DNA from: Mesostigma viride
Taxonomy: Eukaryota; Streptophyta; Mesostigmatophyceae; Mesostigmatales; Mesostigmataceae
Length of the DNA stretch: 64,000 nucleotides
NCBI GenBank assembly: GCA_009746045.1
Contig: RPFO01000026.1
Span: 2,765,663 to 2,829,662, forward strand
Reading direction: 5' to 3'
A model generated the notes under the pieces. That model had not been told where the DNA came from. It worked only from the letters and a program-made list of their open reading frames with translations, and did no database searches. The translations under genes and the position numbers were made by a program. This document shows, in pieces, positions 24,226 through 54,200 of this stretch. Position 1 is the first letter of the stretch. Each line of letters opens with the position of its first letter.

Positions 24226-25965
24226 TCATGGCATGGGTGATCCACCAGTTGTGCCATTCCCCCTAGCTACCAGGTGACGCACCAACTGGCACATTTCCGA
24301 ATGCATGAGCCAGGATTTCGTGTCCGAGAACGTCTTGAACGCCGGATGGAACGGCACGCCTGCCCGCGCGTCCTCCCGCCATGTCATGTACTCCCCATAT
24401 GCCTCGTCATCCGCGGCAAGCCGCTTGATTTCTTGGAAAAATAGCTCCTCGCTCGCAAAATTACCCCGATCTACGATCATGCGCGATGCGCTGTATGGTA
24501 GGAGCTCCTGGACATTCGGGGCGCCCCAGTACAAGGGCAGGCACCCTGCGTGCAGTCCTTGGTACACCTTCTCGGTCACATAGTCGTTCTCGATCGCGTT
24601 CTCAAACGCGACGCAGAAGCGGTACTTTGCTATCATACTTCTCTTCACTATGTTCCCGTATCTGTAAGGCTCGATCGGCCCCATGTTGTTCAGGCACGTC
24701 CCGAACGAGTCCACTCGGAAAACCGCCATAAGCCGTTTGATCAGTTCCTCGCGTTTGTTCGGTGTGTAGCAATTCGAGATCACAACCACAATGGCGTTGA
24801 TCTTTTCGTGGACAGGCAGGGGTGGCAGGTTCAACCCCCACACAGACTTCCCGTCCTGAATCTCCTCCAAAAAACCCTGGCCATATAAATACGGGATCTG
24901 CACGGGGACGAGCTTGGATGACACGCGGTAGCTCAGCTCGATGTCGAATTGCTGCATGAACGTTCGATTGTTCATCCAAGGGTAGTGGACCGCCGACTCG
25001 GGGGAATACCCGACGACGGGCACGTCGGGCCGCAGGTGCAATGGCTCCGCCGATTCATCCATTCTCGGCAGGAAATACCACAGTGTGCTGACGTCGGCGT
25101 CTCGCGGGGGTGGGTGGGCCGGATCCCCCTCCTTGGCGCAGAAGGAGGCATGATCCGCGAATCCCCTGACATGTGCGTCTCCCCTTAATTGCCGAGCATC
25201 GACACGCCCAACAACGTCCCCAACCCAGCAGCGGCCGCAGTGCTCGGGTATGTAATCCACACGAACCATCATGAGGATGGTGAAGTCCACCCTGTCGTTC
25301 ATCGTGACGGGAGGCAGGACCTGTGAGGTGACATTGGGGGTGGCCGGAGTGGTGTCATTGTTATTAAGGGTGGCCGGCTCCGTCTTGTTCACTTCCTGAC
25401 CACCCACTAGAGCCTGAGACGCCCCCGACAACACCGAGCCACCAATAGCTTGCTGGCCGCCCGCTAGAGGAGGCCCAAGGGTTGGCGGCGCGACTTGGCC
25501 GATCCGCTTCCCTTCCCCGGTGACAGGCCGGTCAGGACGTGGCCAGCGTGTCGGTGAAGCCTGCCCCATACTGTTCGCAAATTCACCAGGAGGGGGCGTT
25601 GCCATCGAGTGGGAAGAAGAGGAGCTCCGAAAAATATGCCAACTGGCCTTTTGGAAGGGGCCACGCGCTCGTGGGAGCCCTTTGTAGTAAGCGGACCTGC
25701 GAACTGGGAATGGTTGCAAGTTTGGGAACCGGAACTTGGCGCCTCGGAGGCCCGGCCGTGGCTGTCCACCGGGCCGTCTCCCGCGCATGTTGCCGTTCGT
25801 GACGGGAAGTTGATCACCCTGGACTGGTAAAGTTTGCTCGAGCAGGCCGCTCGCCAAAAGCAGCAGACCAACGCACAGTAGTCGATAGTGCATCCTCCAG
25901 CTAGTAGAAGGCAGGCCTCCAAGGATGCCGTAAGCCACCTGGACTCCTAGACAGGGAATAGGCAA
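24226..25965 (-). CDS. Alpha-1,3-fucosyltransferase, GT10 family, type II membrane protein
   Basis: 579 codons without introns. A short N-terminal tail precedes a hydrophobic anchor (LLCVGLLLLASGLL, residues about 29-42); the second Met (MHYRLL, near 25896) may be the true start. Residues about 45-220 form a Pro/Ser/Gly-rich stem. The catalytic domain follows, with SPESAVHYPWMNN near residue 325 (acceptor motif region) and the GDP-fucose motif RFCVAFENAIENDYVTEK near 447, then GCLPLYWGAPNV. GT10 enzymes move fucose from GDP-fucose to N-acetylglucosamine in glycans, in the Golgi lumen. Ala replaces the usual Ser in FENS. Asn-glycosylation sites (NKT, NNT, NVT) occur in the stem. It is the most gene-like single-copy frame in the left half. 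Confidence 0.9.
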   Translation of the reverse strand: MPIPCLGVQVAYGILGGLPSTSWRMHYRLLCVGLLLLASGLLEQTLPVQGDQLPVTNGNMRGRRPGGQPRPGLRGAKFRFPNLQPFPVRRSAYYKGLPRARGPFQKASWHIFRSSSSSHSMATPPPGEFANSMGQASPTRWPRPDRPVTGEGKRIGQVAPPTLGPPLAGGQQAIGGSVLSGASQALVGGQEVNKTEPATLNNNDTTPATPNVTSQVLPPVTMNDRVDFTILMMVRVDYIPEHCGRCWVGDVVGRVDARQLRGDAHVRGFADHASFCAKEGDPAHPPPRDADVSTLWYFLPRMDESAEPLHLRPDVPVVGYSPESAVHYPWMNNRTFMQQFDIELSYRVSSKLVPVQIPYLYGQGFLEEIQDGKSVWGLNLPPLPVHEKINAIVVVISNCYTPNKREELIKRLMAVFRVDSFGTCLNNMGPIEPYRYGNIVKRSMIAKYRFCVAFENAIENDYVTEKVYQGLHAGCLPLYWGAPNVQELLPYSASRMIVDRGNFASEELFFQEIKRLAADDEAYGEYMTWREDARAGVPFHPAFKTFSDTKSWLMHSEMCQLVRHLVARGNGTTGGSPMP

Positions 25966-37795: not shown

Positions 37796-38340
37796 AGGGT
37801 ATTCATCCAGATCTTTATTCAAATCGCCCATCAACACACCTTCAAACTCGTGGGAAATAAGCTCAGCGACCATTTAGGGGAGGGTAAAATGAGGTTTGAT
37901 CCGCTGGCTCTGCTGGGGCATAGACGATGGATGATAATGTATCCCTTACTGCCTGCCCATGTATTAGGCTGTCGCGTCCAGCGGCCTTGCCACCGAGCCG
38001 CCGCTGTGTCCAGGCCGGGATTCATAGTAGGGCCGAATCGGGGATTTAGGGATTTGCAGGCCGTACGTAGGAAAGTGACGGAGTATCCTTAATGGTTCAG
38101 ACCGGAGATTGAGGGTGCGCACGTCCGGGCAAGATTAGGTAGCTGTGTGCGTTGCGATTGCGTTGCCTTGCGTTGTGCACGTAGTTGCATTGCAATACAC
38201 TGAGAAAACATTATCAGAATGAGACAACTCATGCATTACATTACGTTGCATCAATGATGACTGTTTCATGCATCGCATCGTGCATTAAGTACATTACATC
38301 AGTTACATAATTTACATTGCATCAATGCGGGTTGCTGATT
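37796..38340. other. Unassigned DNA
   Basis: No gene recognised. GCATT/TTACATT-rich near the start of the satellite. Confidence 0.35.
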
Positions 38341-39364
38341 GTAGCTGACATCATTGCATTCCGGCCATTCCATTCCGGCCGGCCATTCGGCCCGCCATTC
38401 CATTCAGACCCCGGCCGGGCCATCCCATTCCATGATGATTACATGATTCCATTCTACTCCCGCCATTCCATCGCATTCCATTCCATTCCATTCCATCCCA
38501 TCTGATCCCATCCCATCCCATCCCCGCATCCCATCCCATCCCATCCCATTCCCGCCATTCCATTCCATTCCATTCCATTCCATTCCATTCCATTCCATTC
38601 CATTCCATTCCATTCCATTCCATTCCATTCCATTCCATTCCATTCCATTCCATTCCATTCCATTCCATTCTGGACATTCCATTCCATTCCATTCCATTCC
38701 ATTCCATTCCATTCCATTCCATTCCATTCCATTCCATTCCATTCCATTCCATTCCATTCCATTCCATTCCATTCCATTCCATTCCATTCCATTCCATTCC
38801 ATTCCATTCCATTCCATTCCATTCCATTCCATTCAGCCATTCCATTCCATTCCATTCAGCCATTCCATTCCATTCCATTCCATTCCATTCCATTCCATTC
38901 CATTCCATTCCATTCCATTCCATTCCATTCCATTCCATCCCATCCCATCCCATCCCATCCCATTCCATTCCATTCCATTCCATTCCATTCCATTCCATTC
39001 CATTCCATTCCATTCCATTCCATTCCATTCCATTCCATTCCATTCCATTCCATTCCATCCCATTCCATTCCATTCCATTCCATTCCATTCCATTCCATTC
39101 CATTCCATTCCATTCCATTCCATTCCATTCCATTCCATTCCATTCCATTCCATTCCATTCCATTCCATTCCATTCCATTCCATTCCATTCCATTCCATTC
39201 CATTCCATTCCATTCCATTCATTCCATTCCATTCCATTCCATTCCATTCCATTCCATTCCATTCCATTCCATTCCATTCCATTCCATTCCATTCCATTCC
39301 ATTCCATTCCATTCCATTCCATTCCATTTGCCATTCCATTCCATTCCATTCCATTCCATTCCAT
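38341..39364. repeat. (ATTCC)n satellite, about 1 kb
   Basis: Pentamers of CCATT, with CCATC variants clustered at 38490-38550 and 38937-38961 and single variants elsewhere. The unit GGAAT is the same as that of human satellite III, an analogy only. Confidence 0.95.
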
Positions 39365-39368
39365 GGTC

Positions 39369-39717
39369 TATTCCCTTCCCTTCCCTTCCCTTCCCTTCCC
39401 TTCCCTTCCCTTCCCTTCCCTTCCCTTCCCTTCCCTTCCCTTCCCTTCCCTTCCCTTCCCTTCCCTTCCCTTCCCTTCCCTTCCCTTCCCTTCCCTTCCC
39501 TTCCCTTCCCTTCCCTTCCCTTCCCTTCCCTTCCCTTCCCTTCCCTTCCCTTCCCTTCCCTTCCCTTCCCTTCCCTTCCCTTCCCTTCCCTTCCCTTCCC
39601 TTCCCTTCCCTTCCCTTCCCTTCCCTTCCCTTCCCTTCCCTTCCCTTCCCTTCCCTTCCCTTCCCTTCCCTTCCCTTCCCTTCCCTTCCCTTCCCTTCCC
39701 TTCCCTTCCCTTCCCTT
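39369..39717. repeat. (TTCCC)n satellite, about 350 bp
   Basis: Virtually perfect pentamers that follow the ATTCC block after a single short junction (ATGGTCTA). The strand is fully polypyrimidine and can form triplex DNA. Confidence 0.95.
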
Positions 39718-39719
39718 GC

Positions 39720-42594
39720 CTTGCCGGCAAATTGCATTATATTTGAACCAGTATGCACATTTGATTGGGCTACATTTTAGGAATTGTCTGATTCCTACAG
39801 AATTTGAATAATTAAAGTTGCATCTGTTTGAATATATAAAAAAAGTCTCGCTACGTTTGCATGCCACAACAAATAACGGTGTTCAGGTCATGCACCTGAG
39901 TGTAAATTAATGTTATCTCAATTTCAGAGTCATGCCACCTGTTCAAATTCATATTACGTTGCCACATGCATTCATTATTGATGACCACTGCATCATGATC
40001 AAACTTATATGACTTATGTAGCTATGTACAAATAGTTATGTCTGGAGAATATTCTAGCACGTACTTAATGCAACTTTAATTTTGTGTAGCTCATCTATAC
40101 CAGTTGCATGAGTCCTCACACTTATGAATAATAACATGAATAATAACATGACACATGTGGTGACGTGTCCAACCAATAAGTGTCAATTCATGGAGATGAC
40201 AAAAGGCTAAACTAACCACTTGATGAATTAGACAACACGACGTGTACATCAAGCTGTAACAGATGCATGACACTGTCCAGCCATCAAATATTGGTGGTTT
40301 CACTAAATATTTACTAATGCCAACAACATAGTTGCCCGATTCCATATCTAAGAATCATTATCCACAAACTGCCTCAAACAGTTCAAAGACAAAGCGTTTC
40401 CCCATCAATTGTGTCAATTGGAACCACCAGAACGGACTGAGTATGGGCATCTTAGTAAGTATGAGAGTATCTAGCCAAATAACATTTTCTGGCCCACCCT
40501 TGGAACCAAGGATGCTTATATATCAAATAACTTTGGGGTCATGTCATTGGTCACATATCTATGCCCCACAGCTGCTATAAATAGCATCCCCACCAAGGGG
40601 GTACGGTGCAGATGGGGTTCAAGAGATATATAATGCAATATGGACCATTTCTCAAAATCTGCTGACCCTGGCCCTTTGAGGGGAGTTTAAGATAATCACA
40701 CGCATGCCATAGATGCATTCACGACATGACATGCCATAGAACTGCACAGGCTAGCTAGCATACAGCCCAAAATAGCTCAGACCGTTATAACGGGTGCAGT
40801 TATTTTGGGGTGTTTTGCTAGCACTACCGTATAGGCATTCAATTCCAACGTGGCACAAAACATCATAGATGGCCACACATGGATTCCCAAACACATTTCC
40901 AGCTTAAAAATCACAACAGCATAGTATACAACAAGTATAAAGCTTGTGCCAAGGCCCAAAACCAAGCGTAGAAGGGGTTCACAAGGAGCTACATTATCAA
41001 TGCATCCAACACACTATAAAGCAATTCCAATGATTGGCAATGATAGAAAAAACAAAAGAACTAACCTGGTTATGCTTCCATGCAAGCAGGCCCCGGCCAT
41101 TCATGTTTCTTGCATGCACTATGGACGCACAAGCAGAAGGATAACTTGGGCCACCAAACCAAGAAGCAATGCCTAGAGCTGGCCAGAAAACCACTTGTCT
41201 CGCTATGTCTGTGCAGGGAAAAGCATCCCGTTATCAAGACCACCATGTTTAGAGACGATACCAAACGCTACTTCACTGGTTTCGTTGAAGCCTCAGCTAA
41301 TAGCAATCAAATGTGGTCCAAAATCTGCGTGACATAGTGGCATTCCCCAACCATCACAAGCGAACGCGTACAAGCACTAAAGCAACAAAACGACAAGAAA
41401 AAACCATCGATTACATGTCTACAACTAGTTTATAAACGATAGGACGACTTGGTACTGTAACTGTATAAACGCTAACATGTTAATACGTACCAGGTCGAAA
41501 CCGCAGATTACCTGCTGTGCGGGAGCCATCACTCCCACCTCACGGACATAGCCTCGAACCTTTCCTGGCCGTCATCGCTAATAAAACATGTCAAGAATGA
41601 CGTAACAAGTCTATCCACGCGCACATATATGGACGTTTGCTGCCGAACATGCCCTCAAGATAATACGAAGATTTCTGCACTAATGACCATCGTCTGCGGC
41701 CTGCCTGCGCCCATGATAGTCAAGTCCGGTGGCCTGTCCCTAGGTCTGTCCGGTGGCGGCCTGTCCGGTGGCGGCTTCCATCTGCGTAGAACATCGGCTG
41801 ACATGTTTCTGGTTTAAAGCTCTGTGATGCCCCAATTACGCAGTCGCCATCGCCCTTGTCTTTTGACTCTCCGCATGCTGAAACTCCGTCACAAGAAGAG
41901 CCTGCACGCGTGCTGCTGTTGTGAGTGCTGTAATTAATTTTATTTACATGTTTGTCTTGTTCTCAAGGAATAGCAGCGGTCCTGTGGGCCTGCGGTCCTG
42001 TCGTTCACTATTAGGCATTGCCTGAACATCGTATATACTGATAAGCATTGCCTGAACATCGTATCACGATTTCTACCATTCCTGAACTCCGTGTGAAAGA
42101 CTTCCAACCAATGGATCGCCGAGTCTACATTTGTCTACTTTTGTCTACTTTTGTCTACATTCTGGCCCGGCTACCGAATCGCTTCACGCCCATGGCATGT
42201 CAGCGTGGGGTTGGATGGCAGTTTTCTCCGGTTTTAATGTCGGTCGTCAGCCAGTAGGGATGGGGGAAAGCGACCAGATCATGCGGCGCCGTGCAGTTGA
42301 CTGGCTCTTACTTGATTTTTTTATAGTCCATTTCAGTATACCGTCACAGATTATACTTATGCAGGCTCGAACCATGCACTCGCCTCGCCAGCAGCCGTTC
42401 AGTTTGGTTGCAGGCGGTCACATTCACAGGGTGCCGTATGTTACTGCTGCATCGGCAGCAAAGGTCTGTGTACGGCGGCAAATAAGTAAAATGCAGTAGA
42501 TCATAGTATATATACCAAGTATTAGTAGAATCTAGTACTTCACAGTGAGTGGGGGGCACTCCTCCTCTGTAAAACGAGTTGGACAGCGGCCACG
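39720..42594. other. 2.9 kb without a recognised gene
   Basis: AT-rich in its first half. Small local duplications occur: GCATTGCCTGAACATCGTAT twice near 42013-42066, TTTGTCTAC three times near 42128-42158, and CTGTCCGGTGGCGGC twice near 41745-41775. Promoter sequence for the synthetase gene would lie at the right end but I see no clear motif. Confidence 0.5.
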
Positions 42595-45500
42595 TTGGAT
42601 GGGGCTCGGCTTATCCGGAGCAACAGCGGGAGCAACGTTCCCCGTTTAAACCGTGCATTTCTCCTGATCACCCGGCCTGGCGCCGGCGGCCCCTCTGTCT
42701 CCCGCCGTATCCATAACTATGCCAGCTGCCTGTTGGGGGAAGGCCTGCGGGTGACCACGGTGTTGTCAAACCCAAGCGTTGCAGAGCTGGCGGCGGCGAT
42801 GACGTGTGGGAGGCAGGTGACGCGGGCGCATGCGGTGGAGCCACCATTGCAGCCCTTCCATGGAGACGTGCCCACGGGCGTGCTGCCTCCCGTGTCGTAT
42901 GGGCAGGAGCAGATGCTGGCATTACACGAGCTGGACCCGGCCAGCCCTGCCTACAACATGGGACTCTGGTGGAGTGTGGTTGGGCATGTGGATGTCGACA
43001 TATTGCGGCGGAGCATGCAGGTGGTGGTGGCACGACATGAAGCGCTTCGGACCCATTATGCGATGCCAGCAATGCAGGCAGCTTCCCAGGGTGCACCAGG
43101 GGCTGTCCAGGTGGTTGTGCCTCCTGATGACTTTGTCCTCCCGTTTGAGGTGGTGGATGCAGGAGATGGCGACCAAGGGCTGTGGGCCTCACTCCACAAG
43201 GAGGCCTCGACGCCCTTCAACCCCTACACAGGGCCCCTGGTGCGCTGCCTGCTGGTAAAGAGGGGTGACCGCTCCAGTGCCCTCATGGTGAACATGCACC
43301 ATTCGGTGAGTGATGGCCTCTCAGGGGTGCTCCTCATCCGTGAGCTCTGCCACAGCTACTCGTCCATTATGAAAGGTGGCGAGTTGTGCTTGCCCCCATT
43401 ACCAGTGCAGTACAGCGACTATGCGGTGTGGCAGCGGCGTTGGTTGGAGGAGACGGGCGAGATGGCTACCCAGCTGGCATATTGGAAGGGCCAGCTGGCA
43501 GGCGCGCCCCAACTCCTGGAACTGCCGACCGACAAGCCGAGGGCGAAGGTGCAGAGCTTTGCAGGTGGCTCTGTGCATGTGAGGTTGGATGAGGGGTTGG
43601 TCCAGCGCCTGAGGGCTGTGGGGGCGCAGCACGGTGCAACTTTTTTGATGGTGCTGACAGCATTGTGGGCTGCTCTGCTGGGTCGTTGCAGCCGGCAGGA
43701 TAAGGTGGTGGTGGGCATGCCCTGGAATGGGCGCAACAAGTCAGAGGTGCAGCACCTGATCGGGTATTTCATCAACCCGCTGGCCCTCTGTGTGGATGTG
43801 GACAGCGCACTGCCCTTCTCCCGCATGGTGCAGCATGTGCGCGATGTGGTCCTGACCGCCATGGAGCATGCGGACGCGCCCTTCCAGAAGGTGGTGGAGG
43901 CTGTTGGTTCAAACGGGGTGGTTGGCCACAACCCCATCTTCCAATCCATGGTGGTGCCCAGCGATTTTGCGGATGGAAACCCCTTGCCCTTGGGTCCCGA
44001 CTGCCTGCTACACCCTCAATTTGTCCAGCAAGGCAGCTCCACCTCAAAGATGGATGTCTCCTTGGTGCTCACTGGAGACATTGGCTCTGCTGACCAGCTG
44101 CTTCTGCTCGAGTACCGGACGGACCTGTGGTGTGAGGCCAGCATGCAGCGGCTGGGCCAGCAGCTGGTGTGCCTGGCCAGCAGCGCTGTGGCATCCCCCG
44201 AGACGCCGGTGGGCCGCCTGCCGATGATGACCGAGGCGGAGCGCAGGCGGGTGGTGGAGGAATGGAACGCTACGGACACGGCCTTTGCTTGTGCTGGCAA
44301 GTGCTTGCACGAGCTGTTTGACGAGCAGGCGTCTCGCACGCCGGACCACGTGGCGGTTGAGACGGAGACTGAGCAAGTGAGCTACTGTGAGCTGCAGCAA
44401 AGGGCGGACGCCTTGGCTTGCATTATTCAGGATACCGGCGTGGTGGTGGGTGGCAGGGTTGGCCTGTGCCTCAAGGGCTGTGTGGAGATGGTGGTGGGTA
44501 TGCTGGCCATCCTCAAGGCAGGGTGTGCGTACGTGCCGCTGGACCCCGACTACCCGGCGGAACGTGTGCAGGGTATGCTGGAGGATGCTAACGTTAGCAT
44601 CCTCCTCACGAGCCCGCACCAGCGACCCCCATGGGGTGCTGATACGTCCGACCACCTGAAGCAGCTGGAGGTTCCACTGACGCCTGCCTATGCCCCTTAC
44701 TTTCCTACACAAAAGCCCGTCATTCACCGCCAGGTGTTCCCCATGGACCTGGCCTATGTGCTCTTCACATCAGGCACCACAGGCCGCCCCAAGGGTGTCA
44801 TGGTGGAGCACCGCAACGCGTGCAACCTGGTGGCCTGTCTGATTGACAGGTGGCAGCTGGACGGCAGCAGCCGCGTGCTGCAACTTGCCAATCCCAGCTT
44901 TGATGCGTCGGTGGCCGAGGTGTTCGGGACACTTGCTGCTGGAGGGACCCTAGTCGTGCACCCGCTTGGGTCTGACCCGCAAGACTCGCTTCGCCGCGTC
45001 ACCTGTGCCTTTGTCGTTCCTTCGGTCCTCTCTATGTTCAACCCTGCGCACTTCCCGGGCCTCTCCACCCTCTGCATTGGTGGAGAGATGGTGCCCCTGC
45101 ACATGGCAACCAGCTGGGCGGCAGGCAGGCGCTGTCTCAACGGCTACGGCCCCACGGAATCCTGCGTTTTTGCCACGATGGGGCAGATGACAGCCGAGGA
45201 CCAACCAGTCTCAATAGGTGGCCCTCTTCCAAACGTGCGGGTCTATGTGCTGGATGCCTACCTTCAACCGACACCCATTGGGGTGCCAGGGGAGCTGTAC
45301 ATCGGCGGTGCAGGCGTGGCGAGGGGCTACGCCAACCGGCATGACCTGACCAAGGAGAGATTCCTGGACAACCCATTTGCGGCGGGCAGGCTGTATCGAA
45401 CTGGAGACCTGGCCAGGTGGCTGCCTGATGGCCGGCTGCAATGCTTGGGTCGCTTGGACCGGCAGGTGAAACTGAGCGGCGTACGCATCGAGTTGGGTGA

Positions 45501-46050
45501 GGTAGAGAGCGTGCTGGAGGCCTGCCCAGGGGTGGCCAAGGCGGTGGCCGTTCTGCAGGATGTGGGCTGTAGCACTGCTAACCCTGGCTTGTCCGGTAAA
45601 CATCTGGTGGCCGATGTGTGCCCTGCGAATGTCCAGGTGGATGCGTTGATGGAAGCAGCTCGGCGCACGCTCCCCAGCTACATGGTTCCCTCGGCGGTGG
45701 AGGCCCTGGAGAGGTTTCCGGAGACCATCTCAGGCAAGGTGGACGCGAGGGCACTTCCCCCAGTGGATCTGAGTACCAGCGGTGGTCGCGATTATGTAGC
45801 GCCTCGGAGCATGTACGAGGCGCGTGTGCAGGCGGTGTGCCAAGACGTGCTGGGTGTGGCGTCGCTGAGCGTGCTGACAAGTTTCCACGAGTATGGCGGC
45901 AACTCGCTGACGGCCATGGCACTCGTGCACCAGATGCGGGAGCGACTGGCTGAGTGCCCAGGCGCGGGGGAAGGCCTGCGGGTGACCACGGTGTTGTCAA
46001 ACCCAAGCGTTGCAGAGCTGGCGGCGGCGATGACGTTGGGAGGCAGGTGA
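42595..46050 (+). CDS. Nonribosomal peptide synthetase, partial carrier plus module 1 (C-A-T)
   Basis: 1151 codons. Residues about 47-72 are the last helices of a carrier domain (GLRVTTVLSNPSVAELAAAM), homologous to the end of the carriers at 45967 and 49197. Then come a condensation domain with HHSVSDG (43297-43317), an adenylation domain with LFTSGTTGRPKG (A3), FDASVAEVFG (A4), GYGPTES (A5), YRTGDLARW (A7) and ISGKVD (A10), and a carrier with the phosphopantetheine Ser in GGNSL (codon 45904-45906). Hand alignment to GrsA gives the pocket D-A-A-F-C-G-G-V-F-K, suggestive of a small or branched hydrophobic residue. The first 140 bases are unrelated to a synthetase, so the N-terminus is truncated or spliced from an upstream exon. 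It ends at a TGA created by a missing T near 46034. Confidence 0.92.
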   Translation: MDGARLIRSNSGSNVPRLNRAFLLITRPGAGGPSVSRRIHNYASCLLGEGLRVTTVLSNPSVAELAAAMTCGRQVTRAHAVEPPLQPFHGDVPTGVLPPVSYGQEQMLALHELDPASPAYNMGLWWSVVGHVDVDILRRSMQVVVARHEALRTHYAMPAMQAASQGAPGAVQVVVPPDDFVLPFEVVDAGDGDQGLWASLHKEASTPFNPYTGPLVRCLLVKRGDRSSALMVNMHHSVSDGLSGVLLIRELCHSYSSIMKGGELCLPPLPVQYSDYAVWQRRWLEETGEMATQLAYWKGQLAGAPQLLELPTDKPRAKVQSFAGGSVHVRLDEGLVQRLRAVGAQHGATFLMVLTALWAALLGRCSRQDKVVVGMPWNGRNKSEVQHLIGYFINPLALCVDVDSALPFSRMVQHVRDVVLTAMEHADAPFQKVVEAVGSNGVVGHNPIFQSMVVPSDFADGNPLPLGPDCLLHPQFVQQGSSTSKMDVSLVLTGDIGSADQLLLLEYRTDLWCEASMQRLGQQLVCLASSAVASPETPVGRLPMMTEAERRRVVEEWNATDTAFACAGKCLHELFDEQASRTPDHVAVETETEQVSYCELQQRADALACIIQDTGVVVGGRVGLCLKGCVEMVVGMLAILKAGCAYVPLDPDYPAERVQGMLEDANVSILLTSPHQRPPWGADTSDHLKQLEVPLTPAYAPYFPTQKPVIHRQVFPMDLAYVLFTSGTTGRPKGVMVEHRNACNLVACLIDRWQLDGSSRVLQLANPSFDASVAEVFGTLAAGGTLVVHPLGSDPQDSLRRVTCAFVVPSVLSMFNPAHFPGLSTLCIGGEMVPLHMATSWAAGRRCLNGYGPTESCVFATMGQMTAEDQPVSIGGPLPNVRVYVLDAYLQPTPIGVPGELYIGGAGVARGYANRHDLTKERFLDNPFAAGRLYRTGDLARWLPDGRLQCLGRLDRQVKLSGVRIELGEVESVLEACPGVAKAVAVLQDVGCSTANPGLSGKHLVADVCPANVQVDALMEAARRTLPSYMVPSAVEALERFPETISGKVDARALPPVDLSTSGGRDYVAPRSMYEARVQAVCQDVLGVASLSVLTSFHEYGGNSLTAMALVHQMRERLAECPGAGEGLRVTTVLSNPSVAELAAAMTLGGR

Positions 46051-49000
46051 CGCGGGCGCATGCGGTGGAGCCACCATTGCAGCCCTTCCATGGAGACGTG
46101 CCCACGGGCGTGCTGCCTCCCGTGTCGTATGGGCAGGAGCAGATGCTGGCATTACACGAGCTGGACCCGGCCAGCCCTGCCTACAACATGGGACTCTGGT
46201 GGAGTGTGGTTGGGCATGTGGATGTCGACATATTGCGGCGGAGCATGCAGGTGGTGGTGGCACGACATGAAGCGCTTCGGACCCATTATGCGATGCCAGC
46301 AATGCAGGCAGCTTCCCAGGGTGCACCAGGGGCTGTCCAGGTGGTTGTGCCTCCTGATGACTTTGTCCTCCCGTTTGAGGTGGTGGATGCAGGAGATGGC
46401 GACCAAGGGCTGTGGGCCTCACTCCACAAGGAGGCCTCGACGCCCTTCAACCCCTACACAGGGCCCCTGGTGCGCTGCCTGCTGGTAAAGAGGGGTGACC
46501 GCTCCAGTGCCCTCATGGTGAACATGCACCATTCGGTGAGTGATGGCCTCTCAGGGGTGCTCCTCATCCGTGAGCTCTGCCACAGCTACTCGTCATTATG
46601 AAAGGTGGCGAGTTGTGCTTGCCCCCATTACCTGTGCAGTACAGCGACTATGCGGTGTGGCAGCGGCGTTGGTTGGAGGAGACGGGCGAGATGGCTACCC
46701 AGCTGGCATATTGGAAGGGCCAGCTGGCAGGCGCGCCCCAACTCCTGGAACTGCCGACCGACAAGCCGAGGGCGAAGGTGCAGAGCTTTGCAGGTGGCTC
46801 TGTGCATGTGAGGTTGGATGAGGGGTTGGTCCAGCGCCTGAGGGCTGTGGGGGCGCAGCACGGTGCAACTTTTTTGATGGTGCTGACAGCATTGTGGGCT
46901 GCTCTGCTGGGTCGTTGCAGCCGGCAGGATAAGGTGGTGGTGGGCATGCCCTGGAATGGGCGCAACAAGTCAGAGGTGCAGCACCTGATCGGGTATTTCA
47001 TCAACCCGCTGGCCCTCTGTGTGGATGTGGACAGCGCACTGCCCTTCTCCCGCATGGTGCAGCATGTGCGCGATGTGGTCCTGACCGCCATGGAGCATGC
47101 GGACGCGCCCTTCCAGAAGGTGGTGGAGGCTGTTGGTTCAAACGGGGTGGTTGGCCACAACCCCATCTTCCAATCCATGGTGGTGCCCAGCGATTTTGCG
47201 GATGGAAACCCCTTGCCCTTGGGTCCCGACTGCCTGCTACACCCTCAATTTGTCCAGCAAGGCAGCTCCACCTCAAAGATGGATGTCTCCTTGGTGCTCA
47301 CTGGAGACATTGGCTCTGCTGACCAGCTGCTTCTGCTCGAGTACCGGACGGACCTGTGGTGTGAGGCCAGCATGCAGCGGCTGGGCCAGCAGCTGGTGTG
47401 CCTGGCCAGCAGCGCTGTGGCATCCCCCGAGACGCCGGTGGGCCGCCTGCCGATGATGACCGAGGCGGAGCGCAGGCGGGTGGTGGAGGAATGGAACGCT
47501 ACGGACACGGCCTTTGCTTGTGCTGGCAAGTGCTTGCACGAGCTGTTTGACGAGCAGGCGTCTCGCACGCCGGACCACGTGGCGGTTGAGACGGAGACTG
47601 AGCAAGTGAGCTACTGTGAGCTGCAGCAAAGGGCGGACGCCTTGGCTTGCATTATTCAGGATACCGGCGTGGTGGTGGGTGGCAGGGTTGGCCTGTGCCT
47701 CAAGGGCTGTGTGGAGATGGTGGTGGGTATGCTGGCCATCCTCAAGGCAGGGTGTGCGTACGTGCCGCTGGACCCCGACTACCCGGCGGAACGTGTGCAG
47801 GGTATGCTGGAGGATGCTAACGTTAGCATCCTCCTCACGAGCCCGCACCAGCGACCCCCATGGGGTGCTGATACGTCCGACCACCTGAAGCAGCTGGAGG
47901 TTCCACTGACGCCTGCCTATGCCCCTTACTTTCCTACACAAAAGCCCGTCATTCACCGCCAGGTGTTCCCCATGGACCTGGCCTATGTGCTCTTCACATC
48001 AGGCACCACAGGCCGCCCCAAGGGTGTCATGGTGGAGCACCGCAACGCGTGCAACCTGGTGGCCTGTCTGATTGACAGGTGGCAGCTGGACGGCAGCAGC
48101 CGCGTGCTGCAACTTGCCAATCCCAGCTTTGATGCGTCGGTGGCCGAGGTGTTCGGGACACTTGCTGCTGGAGGGACCCTAGTCGTGCACCCGCTTGGGT
48201 CTGACCCGCAAGACTCGCTTCGCCGCGTCACCTGTGCCTTTGTCGTTCCTTCGTCCTCTCTATGTTCAACCCTGCGCACTTCCCGGGCCTCTCCACCCTC
48301 TGCATTGGTGGAGAGATGGTGCCCCTGCACATGGCAACCAGCTGGGCGGCGGGCAGGCGCTGTCTCAACGGCTACGGCCCCACGGAATCCTGCGTTTTTG
48401 CCACGATGGGGCAGATGACAGCCGAGGACCAATCAGTCTCAATAGGTGGCCCTCTTCCAAACGTGCGGGTCTATGTGCTGGATGCCTACCTTCAACCGAC
48501 ACCCATTGGGGTGCCAGGGGAGCTGTACATCGGCGGTGCAGGCGTGGCGAGGGGCTACGCCAACCGGCATGACCTGACCAAGGAGAGATTCCTGGACAAC
48601 CCATTTGCGGCGGGCAGGCTGTATCGAACTGGAGACCTGGCCAGGTGGCTGCCTGATGGCCGGCTGCAATGCTTGGGTCGCTTGGACCGGCAGGTGAAAC
48701 TGAGCGGCGTACGCATCGAGTTGGGTGAGGTAGAGAGCGTGCTGGAGGCCTGCCCAGGGGTGGCCAAGGCGGTGGCCCTTCTGCAGGATGTGGGCTGTAA
48801 CAGTGATGGACTCGTCTCCTCTAGCAAACGCCTGGTGGCCTACACTGTCCCTGCTAGTGTCCAGGTGGACGTGTTGATGGAAGCAGCTCGGCGCACGCTC
48901 CCCAGCTACATGGTTCCCTCAGCGGTGGTGGCCCTAGAGAGGCTCCCAGTGACCATCTCGGGCAAGGTGGACGCGAGGGCGCTTCCCCCAGTGGATCTGA

Positions 49001-49990
49001 GTACCAGCGCTGGTCGCGATTATGTAGCGCCTCGGAGCGTGTACGAGGCGCGTGTGCAGGCGGTGTGCCAAGACGTGCTGGGTGTGGCGTCGCTGAGCGT
49101 GCTGACAAGTTTCCACGAGTATGGCATCAACTCGCTGACGGCCATGGCGCTCGTGCACCAGATGCGGGAGCGACTGGCTGAGTGCCCAGGCGCGGGGGAA
49201 GGCCTGCGGGTGACCACGGTGTTGTCAAACCCAAGCGTTGCAGAGCTGGCGGCGGCGATGACGTTTGGGAGGCAGGTGACGCGGGCGCATGCGGTGGAGC
49301 CACCATTGCAGCCCTTCCATGGAGACGTGCCCACGGGCGTGCTGCCTCCCGTGTCGTATGGGCAGGAGCAGATGCTGGTATTACATGAGCTGGACCCGGC
49401 CAGCCCTGCCTACAACATGGGACTCTGGTGGAGTGTGGTTGGGCATGTGGATGTCGACATATTACAGCGGAGCATGCAGGTGGTGGTGGCACGACATGAA
49501 GCGCTTCGGACCCATTATGCGATGCCAGCAATGCAGGCAGCTTCCCAGGGTGCACCAGGGGCTGTCCAGGTGGTTGTGCCTCCTGATGACTTTGTCCTCC
49601 CGTTTGAGGTGGTGGATGCAGGAGATGGCGACCAAGGGCTGTGGGCCTCACTCCACAAGGAGGCCTCGACGCCCTTCAACCCCTACACAGGGCCCTGGTG
49701 CGCTGCCTGCTGGTAAAGAGGGGTGACCGCTCCAGTGCCCTCATGGTGAACATGCACCATTCGGTGAGTGATGGCCTCTCAGGGGTGCTCCTCATCCGTG
49801 AGCTCTGCCACAGCTACTCGTCAATTATGAAAGGTGGCGAGTTGTGCTTGCCCCCATTACCTGTGCAGTACAGCGACTATGCGGTGTGGCAGCGGCGTTG
49901 GTTGGAGGAGACGGGCGAGATGGCTACCCAGCTGGCATATTGGAAGGGCCAGCTGGCAGGCACGCCCCAACTCCTGGAACTGCCAACCGA
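42735..49990 (+). repeat. 3.23-kb tandem repeat of synthetase modules
   Basis: Unit starts at GGGGGAAGGCCTGCGGG recur at 42735, 45966 and 49194 (periods 3231 and 3228). Units 1 and 2 are nearly identical throughout. Unit 3 is identical for about 790 bases, then alternates between diverged and identical patches. Confidence 0.93.
46051..49275 (+). CDS. Nonribosomal peptide synthetase module 2 (C-A-T), frame broken by one-base deletions
   Basis: This is a near-identical tandem copy of module 1: condensation domain with HHSVSDG (46527-46547), adenylation domain with the same pocket residues, and a carrier with Ser in GINSL (49132-49134; Ile where the others have Gly). It reads in three frames: 45954-46601, 46598-48418 and 48262-49716. 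The breaks are a missing C near 46593 and a missing G near 48253, both in short homopolymers and both intact in module 1. The main divergent patch from module 1 is at 48780-48870, between the end of the adenylation core and its C-terminal subdomain. Two equal pockets imply the same residue twice in the product. It is either one reading frame with consensus errors or a recently broken gene. Confidence 0.88.
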
Positions 49991-52900
49991 CAAACCAAGG
50001 CCGAGGGTGCAGTCTTTTAAAGGCGACTGCCTGGAATTCACCCTGGAAAGGATGGTGGTTCAGGCTCTGAAGAAGTTCGCACAGGAATGTGGCGCGACCT
50101 TCTTCATGGTGATGCTGACCCTTTGGGCGGCTCTGCTGGGCCGTTGCAGCCGGCAGGATAAGGTGGTGGTGGGCACACCCTGGAATGGGCGCAACAAGTC
50201 AGAGGTGCAGCACCTGATCGGGTATTTCATCAACCCGCTGGCCCTCTGTGTGAATGTGGACAGCGCGCTGCCCTTCTTCCGCATGGTGCAGCATGTGCGC
50301 GATGTAGTCCTGGCCGCCATGGAGCATGCCGACGCGCCCTTTCACAAGGTGGTGGAGGCTGTGGGGGCGACGGGCAGCGTGAGTGGCAACCCCATCTTCC
50401 AGTCCATGATCATGCCCGACCAAATGGTTGGAATGACTGAGTTGGCACTTGGGCCAGATGCCTGCGTCATTCCGGGTCGTCGTATTAACCGCCACGGCTC
50501 CTCCAAGGTGGATGTGAGCCTTGTCCTCTGCGATGAAACACAGGCGGGCAACCTGACTCTGCTGCTCGAGTACCGGACGGACCTGTGGTGTGAGGCCAGC
50601 ATGCAGCGGCTGGGCCAGCAGCTGGTGTGCCTGGCCAGCAGCGCCGTGGCATCCCCCGAGATGCCGGTGGGCCGCCTGCCGATGATGACCGAGGCGGAGC
50701 GCATGCAGTTGATGGAATCATCGCAGCTGAAGCAGTGGTTGCAAGTGCCTCCCTCTCCCCTCAGCCTGTGTGCCCTGTGGGACTGCCAGGTGGCCACCCG
50801 CCCAGCAGACATGGCGGCACGCTGCCAAGAAGCAGCCCTCTCATTTGCCCAGCTGGACAGTGCCGCGGGATTGCTGTCTGCGGCGCTGGCTGCTAGTGGC
50901 GTGGGCGCAGAGGCACGCGTGGCAATCGTCATGGAGCGGTCGCTCCTGATGCTGGCCGCCATGCTGGGCGTGCTCAAGGCAGGCGCGTGCTACGTGTCCC
51001 TCGACCCCGCCAACCCGCCCGCCTACCTGGCCAGCCTGCTGGATGCCGCGTCCATCAAGGCGATCCTGTGGGACCGCGCTGTTTGCGGGCGGTTGCAGGG
51101 CATGGCCGGGCTGGAGCAAACCACGTGCTTTGTTGTGGACGACCTCGTGGCGGATGCCAGGACAGCATCAGGCACAGGGGGACGAAGGGGCCGAAACCAG
51201 GACTCCTTAGCAGGTCCGTTCATCCACCCTGACCAGACGGCAATCTGCCTGTTCAGCTCCGGCAGCTCCGGCGTGCCCAAGGGGGTCGAATTGACCCACC
51301 GCGCGCTTGTGGCTAAGCTGGAGGGCTACTGGGCGGCGTGCCCCTTTGCGCCCGGCGAGGCCTGCCTGGCGCGCACAACGGTGTCGTTTGTGGACCACAC
51401 ACTGGAGATCCTCGGGTCGCTCCTGCACGGTGTGCCCGTGGTGCTGGCGACCGCGCAGGAGGCGCGCGACCCCGCGTCCCTGCTGCACGTGGCGGTGTCC
51501 GCCCACGTCACGCGACTCGTGGTTGTCCCGTCACTGCTGCAGGTGATGCTGGCAGACGCGGAGGAGGACGAGCGTGCACGCGCCACGTGGTGTGAGGGGC
51601 CCATCTCGCTCGTCATCAGCAGCGGCGAGCCACTCCCCTTGTCCCTGGCGCAGGCGTTCCTGGCGGCCGCGGGCGACCACTGTCAGCTGGTCAACCTGTA
51701 CGGGTCCACGGAGACGTGCGGCGATGCCACGTGGGCGCCCGTGACGCGCGCCATGGTTGCCGCGGGGCACGTCACGGTTGGCCGCCCACTCCTGCACGCC
51801 GTCACGCTGGTGCTCGATGACTACGGCCAGCTGGCACCGCCGGGCGTCCCGGGGGAGCTCTGCGTGGGCGGCGGCGTGGTTGCGCGCGGGTACCTCCACC
51901 AGCCGGAGCTGACCGCATCGCGCTTCACGCGCATACCCATCGCCGACCTGCTGGGGAGGGACGCTGCCGCGTCGCCGTCATGCGGTTTTCCTCAGCATCC
52001 CCCATCAGACATGTTCTCCCCAAGCCGCGATGAGGCTGCTGGCAGCAAGGATGACCGCCCCTCGCTCGTCCTGTACCGCACGGGGGACTGTGCGCGGCTG
52101 CTGCCGTGTGGCGACTTGGCGCTGATGGGTCGCCTGGACCACCAGGTCAAGGTGAGGGGCGTGCGCCTGGAGCTGGGCTTTGTGGAGCAGGCCATGGCGC
52201 GGCTGCCAGGCGTGGCCGCCGCTGGGGCGGTGCTGGTGCCCGCCACCCAGCAGGGCCTCGTGGACGCACCGGGCCATGACACACTGATGGCGGTGGTGAG
52301 CCCCCGGCGGCTGCTCCCAGAGGCACTGCTGGCGGCCCTTCGGCAGCAACTGCCGCTGTACGCCCTCCCCGCGCGCATCCTGTGCGTGGATGAGCTGCCA
52401 CGCCTCATCAGCGGCAAGCTCGACCGCCGCAAGCTGCTGGCCATGGCGGCGGCAGAGATGGCGGAGATGCGGCGCGTGGGGACGGGCGGGGGCGGCCGTG
52501 AGGCGCCCGCGTCGCACGCGGCGGTTAGGACGGACCCGCTCGAGGCCAAGCTGGCCGCGCTGTGGGGGAAGGTGCTGCGCCTGCCCAGCGTGTCCGTGTT
52601 TGACGACTTCTTCAACATCGGGGGCAACTCGCTGGTGGCGGTGCAGCTGCAGAGGGAGCTGGCCAGGGAGCTGGCCAGGGACCCTGCGCTCGCGCCGCTG
52701 GCGTCCGGCAGCCAGAGCCTGTCGGTGTTCAGCCACCGCACCATCAGCAGCATGGCCGCCGAGGCCGCCGGGGCGCTGGGCAGGACGGCAGGCAGGGGTG
52801 CTAGTGGCGCCAGCGACGATGGCCGCGCCTTTACGGGTGCTGCTGCTGCCGCATCCCTCATATTCAGGCCGCGGTCCTTGTTTGCCCGCTTGCTGGGGCC

Positions 52901-54200
52901 AGCTTCATCATCCAGTGGTGCAGAGCCAGCCACGTGGGGTGAGGAGCACGCACAGTCGGGAGTGCTGGAGGTGGTCACGTCCAACCTGCGCTTCCTGTGG
53001 AGCTTCTCCGTCGTCATGCTCCACTTCGGCCACTGCGGGGGCCAGAATCTGCGCTGCTTCCAGAACACGCCGCTGGCCGGGCTTTGGGCGCCGCACGACA
53101 ACACCTCGCTCGCCAACTTTGTGCCCAGGGCCTTCCAGGGGGGTGTCTTGGGCCTGTCCATCTTGTCAGGGATGGGAGCCGCATCGGGCGGCATGCGACC
53201 ATCCCTGGGCACGCCCCTACTGGCGGTCATGCTGGCGCTGCTCATGGAGTTTGGGGTATCCCGCGCATTTGACGACCTCGTGCGGTCATCGAAGCAGGAG
53301 CGCTTCTCCACCACGGCCCACCTATGGGGCCTGTGGGCACTGGCCTTCAACCAGCTGCTGCTGTGGCTGTGTGTCGGCATATGGCGCGGCCACAACCACC
53401 GCGAGGGTCCCAGGCACCAGAAAGGTGGTGTTGTGCTCCTGCTTCTGGCCGCTGGCACGGTGCAATTCCTGCTCCCCATTCTCTTTGCGTTGCTGTGGCC
53501 CCCGGCTTCAGCGGCGGGTGTTCATGGGATGTGGTTTGGTCCCTGGGGCATGCACCAGTTGGGCTGGGAGCCACTGGGGCCGCGTGTCCTCACCTCTGCG
53601 TTGCCCTTTGCGATCGGGTATGCATACAACAGCCAGATCACTCGCATGGTGCACACGGTTCGGTCGCACGTGTGGCTTCGGGTCGTACTGGCCGCCATAT
53701 TTGTGCAGCTCACGGTTCGATCCACGTTCTTCCTCGACATCCTCTCGGGGGTGGACCTGCGTTCCAGCGAGTCAGCGCGTTTTGCCACCATCGCCGACGT
53801 GATGGCCACGTGGGAGCTCGGATCATGGTGGCGGGAATGGCCGCTGAGGGTGCTGGGTTACATGGGCGCGCTAGCGGAGGATATGGGGATGGCCTTTTCG
53901 ATGCTGGCCGTTATGCCAGCGCTGGATGGCATGGTCACCAGGTTTGGCAGGGCCTCCCTGCCCATATATCTTTTCCATCCCCATGTTTTGAGGCTGATGG
54001 AGCCGTTCTCGTTCTGGCTGCTGCGCCAGGTGTCCTCCAACATGCCGCTCACAGTCACCTTGGAGGTCCTCCTGCCGCTCAGCTTCACGGTATGCCTCTG
54101 CCTCGCTTTCTCGGCGATGCAGCGGCGGGGACTGGGGGTCGGGAAAACTGTCCTCGGCCTGTCCATTGTGCTGCATGTCCTAAAGCGGGCCCTTGTGTAA
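49276..54200 (+). CDS. Nonribosomal peptide synthetase module 3 (C-A-T) fused to a membrane acyltransferase-like domain
   Basis: The frame at 49641-54200 has 1519 codons; a missing C near 49694 separates it from the module 2 frame. The condensation domain has HHSVSDG (49755-49775). The adenylation domain differs strongly from modules 1-2: LFSSGSSGVPKG (A3), SFVDHTLEI (A4), LYGSTET (A5), YRTGDCARL (A7), LISGKLD (A10), with a 40-residue insert before A7. Its hand-derived pocket is V-D-L-V-I-S-L-G-D-K, close to the beta-alanine code VDWVISLADK of bacterial synthetases. The carrier Ser is in GGNSL (52629-52631). From 52960 come LRFLWSFSVVMLHFGH, about eight to ten hydrophobic segments and SLPIYLFHPHVL, the beginning and end signatures of acyltransferase family 3 (OafA-like). 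No thioesterase or reductase is present, so release may be by this domain onto a lipid- or membrane-side acceptor (inference). Confidence 0.9.

Follow-up and report, generated by a model that had tools for sequence, protein, structure and literature searches.

The synthetase locus

The window, a stretch of 64,000 nucleotides of Mesostigma viride DNA, carries on its forward strand a nonribosomal peptide synthetase (NRPS) locus in which three condensation-adenylation-carrier (C-A-T) sets are followed by a multi-pass membrane domain. All three sets, proposed in the initial annotation, were recovered by Pfam search. The repeated C, A and T domains lie above the Pfam cut-offs in the window and likewise in the paralogs that were scanned. 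The first frame, from 42529, begins with a stretch lacking a domain match. The tail of a carrier domain follows at 42694..42789 (residues 56-87 of the frame; local HMM match, 16 bits). Module 1 spans 42889..46029, with C (PF00668) at 42889-44250, A (PF00501) at 44317-45330, the A C-terminal domain (PF13193) at 45499-45738 and T (PF00550) at 45823-46029. Module 2 (46119..49257) has its Pfam-assigned C-A-T set distributed over three frames (46119-46595, 46601-48253 and 48277-49257) and is near-identical to module 1 in the DNA comparison; 45 aligned bases are unlike in approximately 3.2 kb, mostly within one patch. Module 3, the terminal module (49348..52679), has its Pfam C domain in two frames (49348-49524 and 49692-50711), followed by A at 50787-51896, the A C-terminal domain at 52182-52418 and T at 52548-52679. 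Its best match in the PDB is 6mfz (E 3.2e-143). An in-frame linker at 52755..52937, placed from the domain limits and the reading frame, connects the last carrier to the membrane domain (52938..54197).

The final frame (49608-54200) stays open across the third C domain, A, T and the hydrophobic domain of 420 residues, as judged from the ORF list and Pfam. The hydrophobic domain has NLRFLWSFSVVMLHFGH at its start and SLPIYLFHPHVL at its end, as first described, and Pfam finds no thioesterase or reductase domain in this frame, also as claimed.

The region 42595-54200 had been described as a single open three-module synthetase. The order of three C-A-T sets and a membrane domain stands; the continuity does not. 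The window copy consists instead of five overlapping frames (42529-46050, 45954-46601, 46574-48418, 48205-49716 and 49608-54200). The breaks correspond to four positions, near 46.04, 46.59, 48.25 and 49.69 kb, at which modules that are elsewhere near-identical differ by a single base. The proposed start at 42595 is merely the first TTG in a mechanical ORF list. The acyl-AMP-ligase loading module of the gene model P0005 has no match within the window at E 1e-5, and the loading modules of P0009 and P0010 match only the elongation A domains there (25-45% identity). An intact three-module gene starting at 42595 is not supported; as assembled, the copy is broken over five frames and lacks the loading module of its paralogs. 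The window copy is a broken member of a synthetase family, either decayed or mis-assembled.

The terminal membrane domain

The family alignment of the membrane domain has 15 members. The column table derived from it has 14 rows, 11 of which cover both R and H of the helix-1 motif; helix numbers and the position of the TMH3 arginine were assigned by eye. Hydropathy averaged over the 15 paralogs shows nine separate stretches above the chosen threshold, and a low-confidence model adds two further helices, to give 11 long helices in all. Taken together, these suggest 10-11 membrane segments; the initial annotation counted eight to ten hydrophobic segments. Two predicted models of the domain were compared with solved structures; with pLDDT values of 48.6 and 60.2, they are too weak to decide whether the domain has the ten-helix membrane core of AT3/TmAT enzymes.

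R/K-x10-H in helix 1 is a motif of acyltransferase family 3 (AT3/TmAT), as described in the consulted part of PMC7448272. SxxxY lies in TMH9, and conserved TmAT positions of this kind line the acyl-CoA site, according to excerpts of PMC12423673. In the window, R-x10-H runs from Arg18 to His29 of the domain, in the first membrane helix (52989..53024); it is present in the window and in nine of the 11 covering rows. HLW opens the fourth membrane helix (53319..53327) and is found in all 14 rows. The sequence SLPIYLFHP in the ninth membrane helix (53955..53981) comprises SxxxY and a histidine. Across the 14 rows, Gly227 and His347 are each conserved in 13, Tyr344 in 12 and Ser340 in nine; the window has both the helix-6 glycine and the helix-9 SxxxY. 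WecH and OpgC carry R-x10-H in helix 1, HLW, SxxxY and a near-end histidine in an order identical to that in the Mesostigma domain. At the FxxxxG position of helix 2, Gly78 is present in every row, and the expected Phe is Leu in 13 of the 14 and Ala in P0001, which is encoded on a 6.8 kb ENA contig. The helix-3 arginine (RxxR) is absent from the window, where residue 91 (53208..53210) is Gly; of the other 13 rows, nine have Arg there and P0001 has Lys. In a divergent paralog on contig C1801, at 7.83 Mb, neither the R nor the H of R-x10-H is present, and the paralog N9 has Gln for Arg.

The window domain gives no match to PF01757 at a limit of E 10 and none in NCBIfam at E 1. Taken literally, the lack of a family 3 profile match, named beforehand as refuting, applies to the window sequence; it does not apply to the family. 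Four of the 15 paralogs do match PF01757 (E 2.2e-5 to 1.9e-3; 17.8-24.1 bits; model positions 83-320), all below the gathering cut-off of 31 bits. These four form two independent groups, three of them being near-identical. The whole gene model P0010 matches with E 6.9e-4. None of the 15 domains reaches the cut-off, and the highest score is 24.1 bits. A PF01757 search of the genome gives matches at two other places only, on contigs C1591 and C113. When the family profile was run against 299 bacterial genomes, six matches were obtained, three of which lie inside true PF01757 proteins (81-99 bits). The best has E 5.9e-4 for one genome, which amounts to about 0.18 chance matches across all 299. 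Five genomes holding WecH give no match to the family profile at E 10, and the profile-profile comparison of the membrane domain with WecH/OpgC is not significant. The sub-threshold paralog matches and the three bacterial PF01757 proteins support the acyltransferase-3-like nature that had been proposed for the domain. These comparisons show a domain that appears remotely like PF01757, with acyl-CoA-site motifs correspondingly placed.

A family of paralogous synthetases

Matches in the 440 Mb Mesostigma viride assembly fall into 23 loci. Four copies are on the window contig (C887), and the family is also present on contigs of up to 12.1 Mb. Eight long paralogous frames were read (2,748-6,106 aa); examples of long-frame paralogs are those on C2 at 0.60 Mb and on C1801 at 7.50 Mb. 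All eight are continuous coding frames, which the window copy is not, and all end in A-T-membrane domain-stop after one to five C-A-T modules. Four of them open with a loading domain. This domain, seen in the more complete paralogs, is acyl-AMP-ligase-like and, in the one tested, nearest to oxalate-CoA ligases. Public (EukProt) gene models of Mesostigma, belonging to six gene ids and 9 protein clusters, also carry the membrane domain. Model P0007 gives one unbroken match to 51534-54197 of the window, covering carrier and membrane domain, and P0009 has a carrier at 2179-2218 and the membrane domain from about 2336 of the same protein. Neither a stop nor an intron, named beforehand as the evidence that would separate the two domains, lies between carrier and membrane domain in the window frame, in the eight long frames or in these two models.

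The dN/dS of the membrane domain is 0.17-0.28 in all 15 pairs of copies, and that of the window domain against its closest copy is 0.19. By these ratios, the domain evolves under purifying selection. The domain order is more than chance, since it is repeated in the eight long frames and in the public gene models and the membrane domain shows this selection. A C-A-T array ending in a membrane domain is a genuine architecture. The terminal A domains group in a clade of their own, and their pocket has V-D at positions 235-236. The conserved last module is predicted to add a non-alpha, probably a beta-amino acid.

Sequence searches showed no fused relative outside Mesostigma among the matches listed. 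Among the literature matches listed, as far as their excerpts go, no description of an algal synthetase with such a terminal membrane domain was recognised. The consulted portion of PMC10794256 lists Mesostigma NRPSs, states that the algal 'hit' NRPSs have no thioesterase, and names no terminal membrane domain; the word 'transmembrane' does not occur.

The window locus is probably a pseudogene, or else an artefact that arose in assembling near-identical tandem modules, and therefore nothing would be made from it; this concerns the window copy alone and is compatible with the reading of the family given below. The four single-base frame breaks, the absent loading module and the Gly at the TMH3-Arg position point this way, as do the four family copies on one contig and the 7,570 pseudogenes annotated in the published PacBio/Illumina/optical assembly (PMC6947507, consulted in part). 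Against it, every frame is open between the four breaks, the domains are retained, and the membrane domain has the low dN/dS relative to its closest copy. Bacterial contamination as the source of the DNA is highly improbable. Contigs C2011 and C870, which also carry NRPSs, do resemble the 'Ca. Megaira' endosymbiont in size and GC; however, the window contig is 5.27 Mb long, and GC is 54% in the window and 64% in the NRPS, while three stretches sampled from these two contigs have 31-37%. The large contigs that bear the family and its presence in the EukProt gene models also argue against contamination.

Proposed release of the peptidyl chain

A C-terminal thioesterase, reductase or terminal C domain is usual, though not universal, in multimodular NRPSs. 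No such release domain was found in the window or in the scanned paralogs, and the membrane domain occupies that place. Pfam and the paralogous frames thus uphold the proposal that the synthetase has a membrane domain at its end and no thioesterase. PF00975 matches the assembly at six places; two of these are fused to NRPS frames, and both lie on the endosymbiont-like contigs C870 and C2011.

Several known systems share parts of this arrangement. The C, A and T domains, together with the best PDB match of module 3 (6mfz), link the window synthetase to bacterial NRPSs such as linear gramicidin synthetase LgrA, which are not known to carry such a membrane domain and release their products by other means. 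Epsilon-poly-lysine and delta-poly-ornithine synthetases combine A-T with a terminal membrane domain. Theirs is a domain of approximately 730 residues, with six helices in three pairs and three intervening soluble segments of approximately 180 residues, and it polymerises one amino acid. The window domain differs in having 420 residues, approximately 10-11 segments, no such inserts and C-A-T modules upstream; its length, its larger number of segments and the lack of long inserts rule against a membrane NRPS of the epsilon-poly-lysine type. The AT3/TmAT superfamily (PF01757; OafA/OafB, WecH, OpgC; HGSNAT) resembles the window domain in its many membrane helices. Unlike those enzymes, the Mesostigma domain is under the Pfam cut-off, forms the C-terminal end of an NRPS, has Leu for the TMH2 Phe and probably takes a carrier-bound chain, not free acyl-CoA, as donor. 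In the DltA-DltC-DltB system, carrier-bound D-alanine is passed to a membrane O-acyltransferase and on to an extracellular polymer. The likeness to our proposal is the step from a carrier-bound amino acid to a membrane acyltransferase. The differences are that the Dlt components are separate proteins, that DltB is an MBOAT of another fold, and that a single residue is moved, not a peptide.

We consider the chances about even that Mesostigma viride has a nuclear NRPS family in which an AT3/TmAT-like membrane release domain replaces the thioesterase, the window holding a decayed or mis-assembled copy. In such a family, the acyl-AMP-ligase-like loading domain of the more complete members would prime a carrier, and one to five C-A-T modules would extend the chain. 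The finished chain would be held by the carrier of the last module, tethered to the membrane domain by the short linker. The phosphopantetheine arm of this carrier may enter the cytosolic pore mouth, the site of acyl-CoA entry in AT3 enzymes. The histidine of R-x10-H may help to shift the peptidyl group onto the hydroxyl or amine of an acceptor (a glycan, lipid or small molecule) that lies within the membrane or on the opposite side of it. The last carrier would thus pass its peptidyl chain on to an acceptor in the membrane or the lumen. We tentatively picture a built-in trans-membrane ejector, somewhat short of an even chance, in which the carrier arm plugs the AT3 pore in place of coenzyme A and an ester or amide bond joins an acyl-peptide ending in a beta-amino acid to an acceptor in the lumen or the membrane, such as the glycans of the scaly cell surface. 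We know of no NRPS for which such a transfer mode of release has been described.

The domain could also be a membrane anchor only, derived from an acyltransferase that has lost catalysis; the product would then leave through hydrolysis, a step of the condensation type or the action of another enzyme. The loss of R and/or H in N9 and in the C1801 paralog is consistent with this, as is the failure of all 15 domains to reach the PF01757 cut-off. The conservation of R-x10-H in nine of 11 covering rows, down to approximately 41% identity to the window domain, exceeds what an anchor needs, and the low dN/dS among close copies also renders an anchor unlikely. Ordinary AT3 chemistry is an unlikely alternative. 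The domain would then acylate (e.g. acetylate) a glycan, a lipid or the finished peptide from free acyl-CoA, and the fusion would merely join two steps of a pathway. Acyl-CoA is indeed the donor of known AT3/TmAT enzymes, whose CoA site is lined by conserved residues (PMC12423673 and PMC7448272, both in part), and the TMH1 Arg is kept in nine of 11 rows. However, the domain lies directly after the last carrier in all eight long frames read; with the thioesterase's place so occupied, free acyl-CoA chemistry would leave the protein with no other known release step.

Release domains set the identity and the destination of NRPS products. If transfer by the membrane domain is correct, one protein couples non-ribosomal peptide synthesis to membrane transfer, and the TmAT superfamily would be widened from CoA-bound to carrier-bound donors. 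The family can be tested without the broken window copy because eight long paralogous frames are open, four of them starting at a loading domain. It would provide a testable path to unknown peptides or peptidyl-modified glycans and lipids of Mesostigma, and would represent a release mode not known to us from any NRPS. Within a single early-diverging streptophyte alga, this mode would extend over 23 loci, of which at least eight have long frames.

Domain order of the window synthetase and its paralogs

As the initial annotation proposed, Pfam places three condensation-adenylation-carrier (C-A-T) modules in order in the window, including the AMP-binding C-terminal domains. No stop separates the third carrier from the membrane domain (52938-54197, +); the frame at 49608-54200 is open from inside the third C domain to the membrane-domain end. 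The NRPS domains are spread across five overlapping frames. The first has a domain-free opening followed by a carrier tail, and a search of the window found no match to the loading module of the gene model P0005. This copy is therefore 5'-truncated and frame-broken as assembled. The window spans 2765663-2829662 of contig C887, in an assembly of 439.9 Mb and 2,243 contigs. Modules 1 and 2 are almost identical, and the frame changes fall at four single-base differences between modules. The breaks may be biological, or consensus errors within near-identical repeats. Isoforms P0002-P0005 (gene id Mv00649) differ via internal jumps between near-identical module sequences, which may reflect genuine splicing or errors of transcript assembly over repeats.

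Elsewhere in the window, a glycosyltransferase family 10 (fucosyltransferase) domain lies at 24226-25965 (-; PF00852, E 3.7e-29). The stretch 38001-40000, extremely skewed in base composition (GC skew -0.62, AT skew -0.31), carries a long mechanical minus-strand frame matching only Lamprin and pentapeptide-repeat models, and is probably a simple-sequence tract.

The 470-residue C-terminal region found 39 matches in its own genome, grouped into 23 loci. Eight long open frames among these were fully read: C887 at 4.22 Mb (3,268 aa), C1622 (4,355 aa), C2 (3,278 aa), C1846 (6,106 aa), C1507 (2,997 aa), C1801 at 7.50 Mb (2,748 aa), C1602 (5,169 aa), and C1802 (5,974 aa), all named by contig. Local profiles show that all eight terminate in A-T-membrane domain, with the frame end at most 10 residues away. 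C1801 has the fewest C-A-T modules, a single one, and C1846 the most, five; the C1846 frame starts inside an earlier module. Four frames begin with a loading adenylation domain. In C1622 and C2 a clear carrier follows it (64-69 bits); in C1801 and C1802 the carrier there is weak (6 and 16 bits). The C1801 loading domain (L020:1430-3700, +) is closest in the PDB to oxalate-CoA ligases (E 6e-107), an unusual starter for an NRPS.

The adenylation-domain tree sorts by position in the synthetase, into terminal (nine terminal domains plus one from C1602; support 95/94), internal (n=12; 100/99), and loading (n=4; 100/100) clades; the program warns of long branches for rows of C1602, C1802, and C1801. 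The terminal module and the membrane domain together thus seem to be an old unit, while the internal modules expand. Within window 50787-54197, the terminal A domain groups with the C1846, C1622, and C2 copies, while the membrane domain shares 98% identity with the copy at 4.22 Mb on C887. These different nearest copies suggest recombination or gene conversion between copies.

Probable relation of the membrane domain to family 3 acyltransferases

In the family alignment, R-x10-H is present in nine of the 11 rows covering both positions, HLW in 14/14, Gly227 in 13/14, Tyr344 in 12/14, and His347 in 13/14. Five PF01757 comparison proteins all have R-x10-H and SxxxY, and three have HxW; WecH and OpgC share HLW with the Mesostigma domains. 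PMC7448272 describes the R and H of R/K-x10-H, and both Arg of RxxR, as essential in OafA. In the TmAT superfamily, TMH1-Arg, TMH3-Arg, TMH6-Gly, and TMH9-Tyr are part of the acyl-CoA site (PMC12423673). The helix-3 Arg position is Gly in the window and Arg in nine other rows. All 15 pairs of six closely related membrane domains gave dN/dS of 0.17-0.28 (Nei-Gojobori; 0.17-0.22 for pairs with the window domain).

The initial annotation called the domain acyltransferase-3-like. The window domain gave no PF01757 match at E 10, whereas four of 15 paralogous domains matched, all below the 31-bit cut-off: C1106 at 2.28 Mb (E 2.2e-5, 24.1 bits) and 1.21 Mb (E 6.7e-5), C1468 (E 1.2e-4), and C667 (E 1.9e-3). 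The C1106 pair and C1468 are near-identical, so the four matches amount to two independent ones. A PF01757 search of the genome matched only two other places, C1591 and C113.

A family profile was scored over 299 bacterial genomes from one phylum, with E stated per genome. Six reached E <=0.1 (best 5.9e-4). Five of these matches were scanned with Pfam; three lie within PF01757 proteins (81-99 bits) and two are short frames without a Pfam match. At E 0.02-0.04 per genome, these frames (L120, L121) partly resemble the domain in its HLW and HFGHC...NLRCF stretches, a likeness that is probably chance. The profile found nothing at E 10 in five enterobacterial genomes with WecH, and profile-profile comparison with WecH/OpgC was not significant. 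Two AlphaFold models were weak and, compared with solved structures, did not settle the fold. Judged on sequence, the domain is likely to be a remote AT3/TmAT relative. We do not class it as a PF01757 member, because matches fell below the tested cut-off and the fold is not established here.

A set of 5.77 billion proteins was searched three times, with scoring restricted each time to about 8,000 candidates with the most words in common and to proteins of similar length. Among them, one relative lies beyond Mesostigma: P0001 (ENA, 486 aa, 29% identical, E 1e-53; E 0.31 against PF01757), with no NRPS domain within its available 486 aa. No NRPS with this membrane terminus appeared outside Mesostigma among those candidates. 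A protein search with a paralog terminal domain gave nine clusters, all EukProt models named jgi/Mesvir1.

Terminal adenylation pocket and chain release

Pocket positions follow GrsA numbering, in a register verified against LgrA. Read by eye, the window and C1801 share the terminal pocket V-D-L-V-I-S-L-G-D-K, and C1602 has I-D-L-V-I-S-L-G-D-K; the pocket resembles a presumed beta-alanine code. Position 235, usually Asp, is Val in the window, close paralogs, C1801, and C1802, and Ile in C1602; Asp follows at 236. A domains for alpha-amino acids retain Asp235 (PMC11355689).

Pfam bore out the proposed lack of a thioesterase or reductase in the window frames. Scans of three gene models and three paralogous frames, the 3,268-aa frame over 2,990 aa, also found neither. 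An algal gene-cluster survey lists Mesostigma NRPSs and describes its 'hit' candidate NRPSs as lacking a thioesterase (PMC10794256). PF00975 matches the whole assembly six times, twice inside long frames also holding condensation domains, on contigs C870 and C2011. On size and GC these contigs look like the known 'Ca. Megaira' symbiont, whose chromosome has 1.448 Mb and 33.9% GC (PMC9098888): C2011 measures 1.488 Mb, and three sampled stretches of the two contigs have 31-37% GC. The assembly seems to include the symbiont, with NRPS and fused thioesterase domains on these low-GC contigs (sequences L125, L126, L127). Condensation-domain scores recur at both ends of C2011, suggestive of a circular chromosome that was linearised with overlapping ends.

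Beyond the observed domain order, recurrence, selection, and motifs, we propose that the last-carrier arm would occupy the CoA site of the membrane domain and that the chain would pass to an acceptor in the membrane or the lumen. Two rival explanations are live: the domain may serve as an anchor only, or as a fused enzyme doing ordinary acyl-CoA chemistry. The cell surface of Mesostigma is scaly, and is one place to look for such an acceptor.
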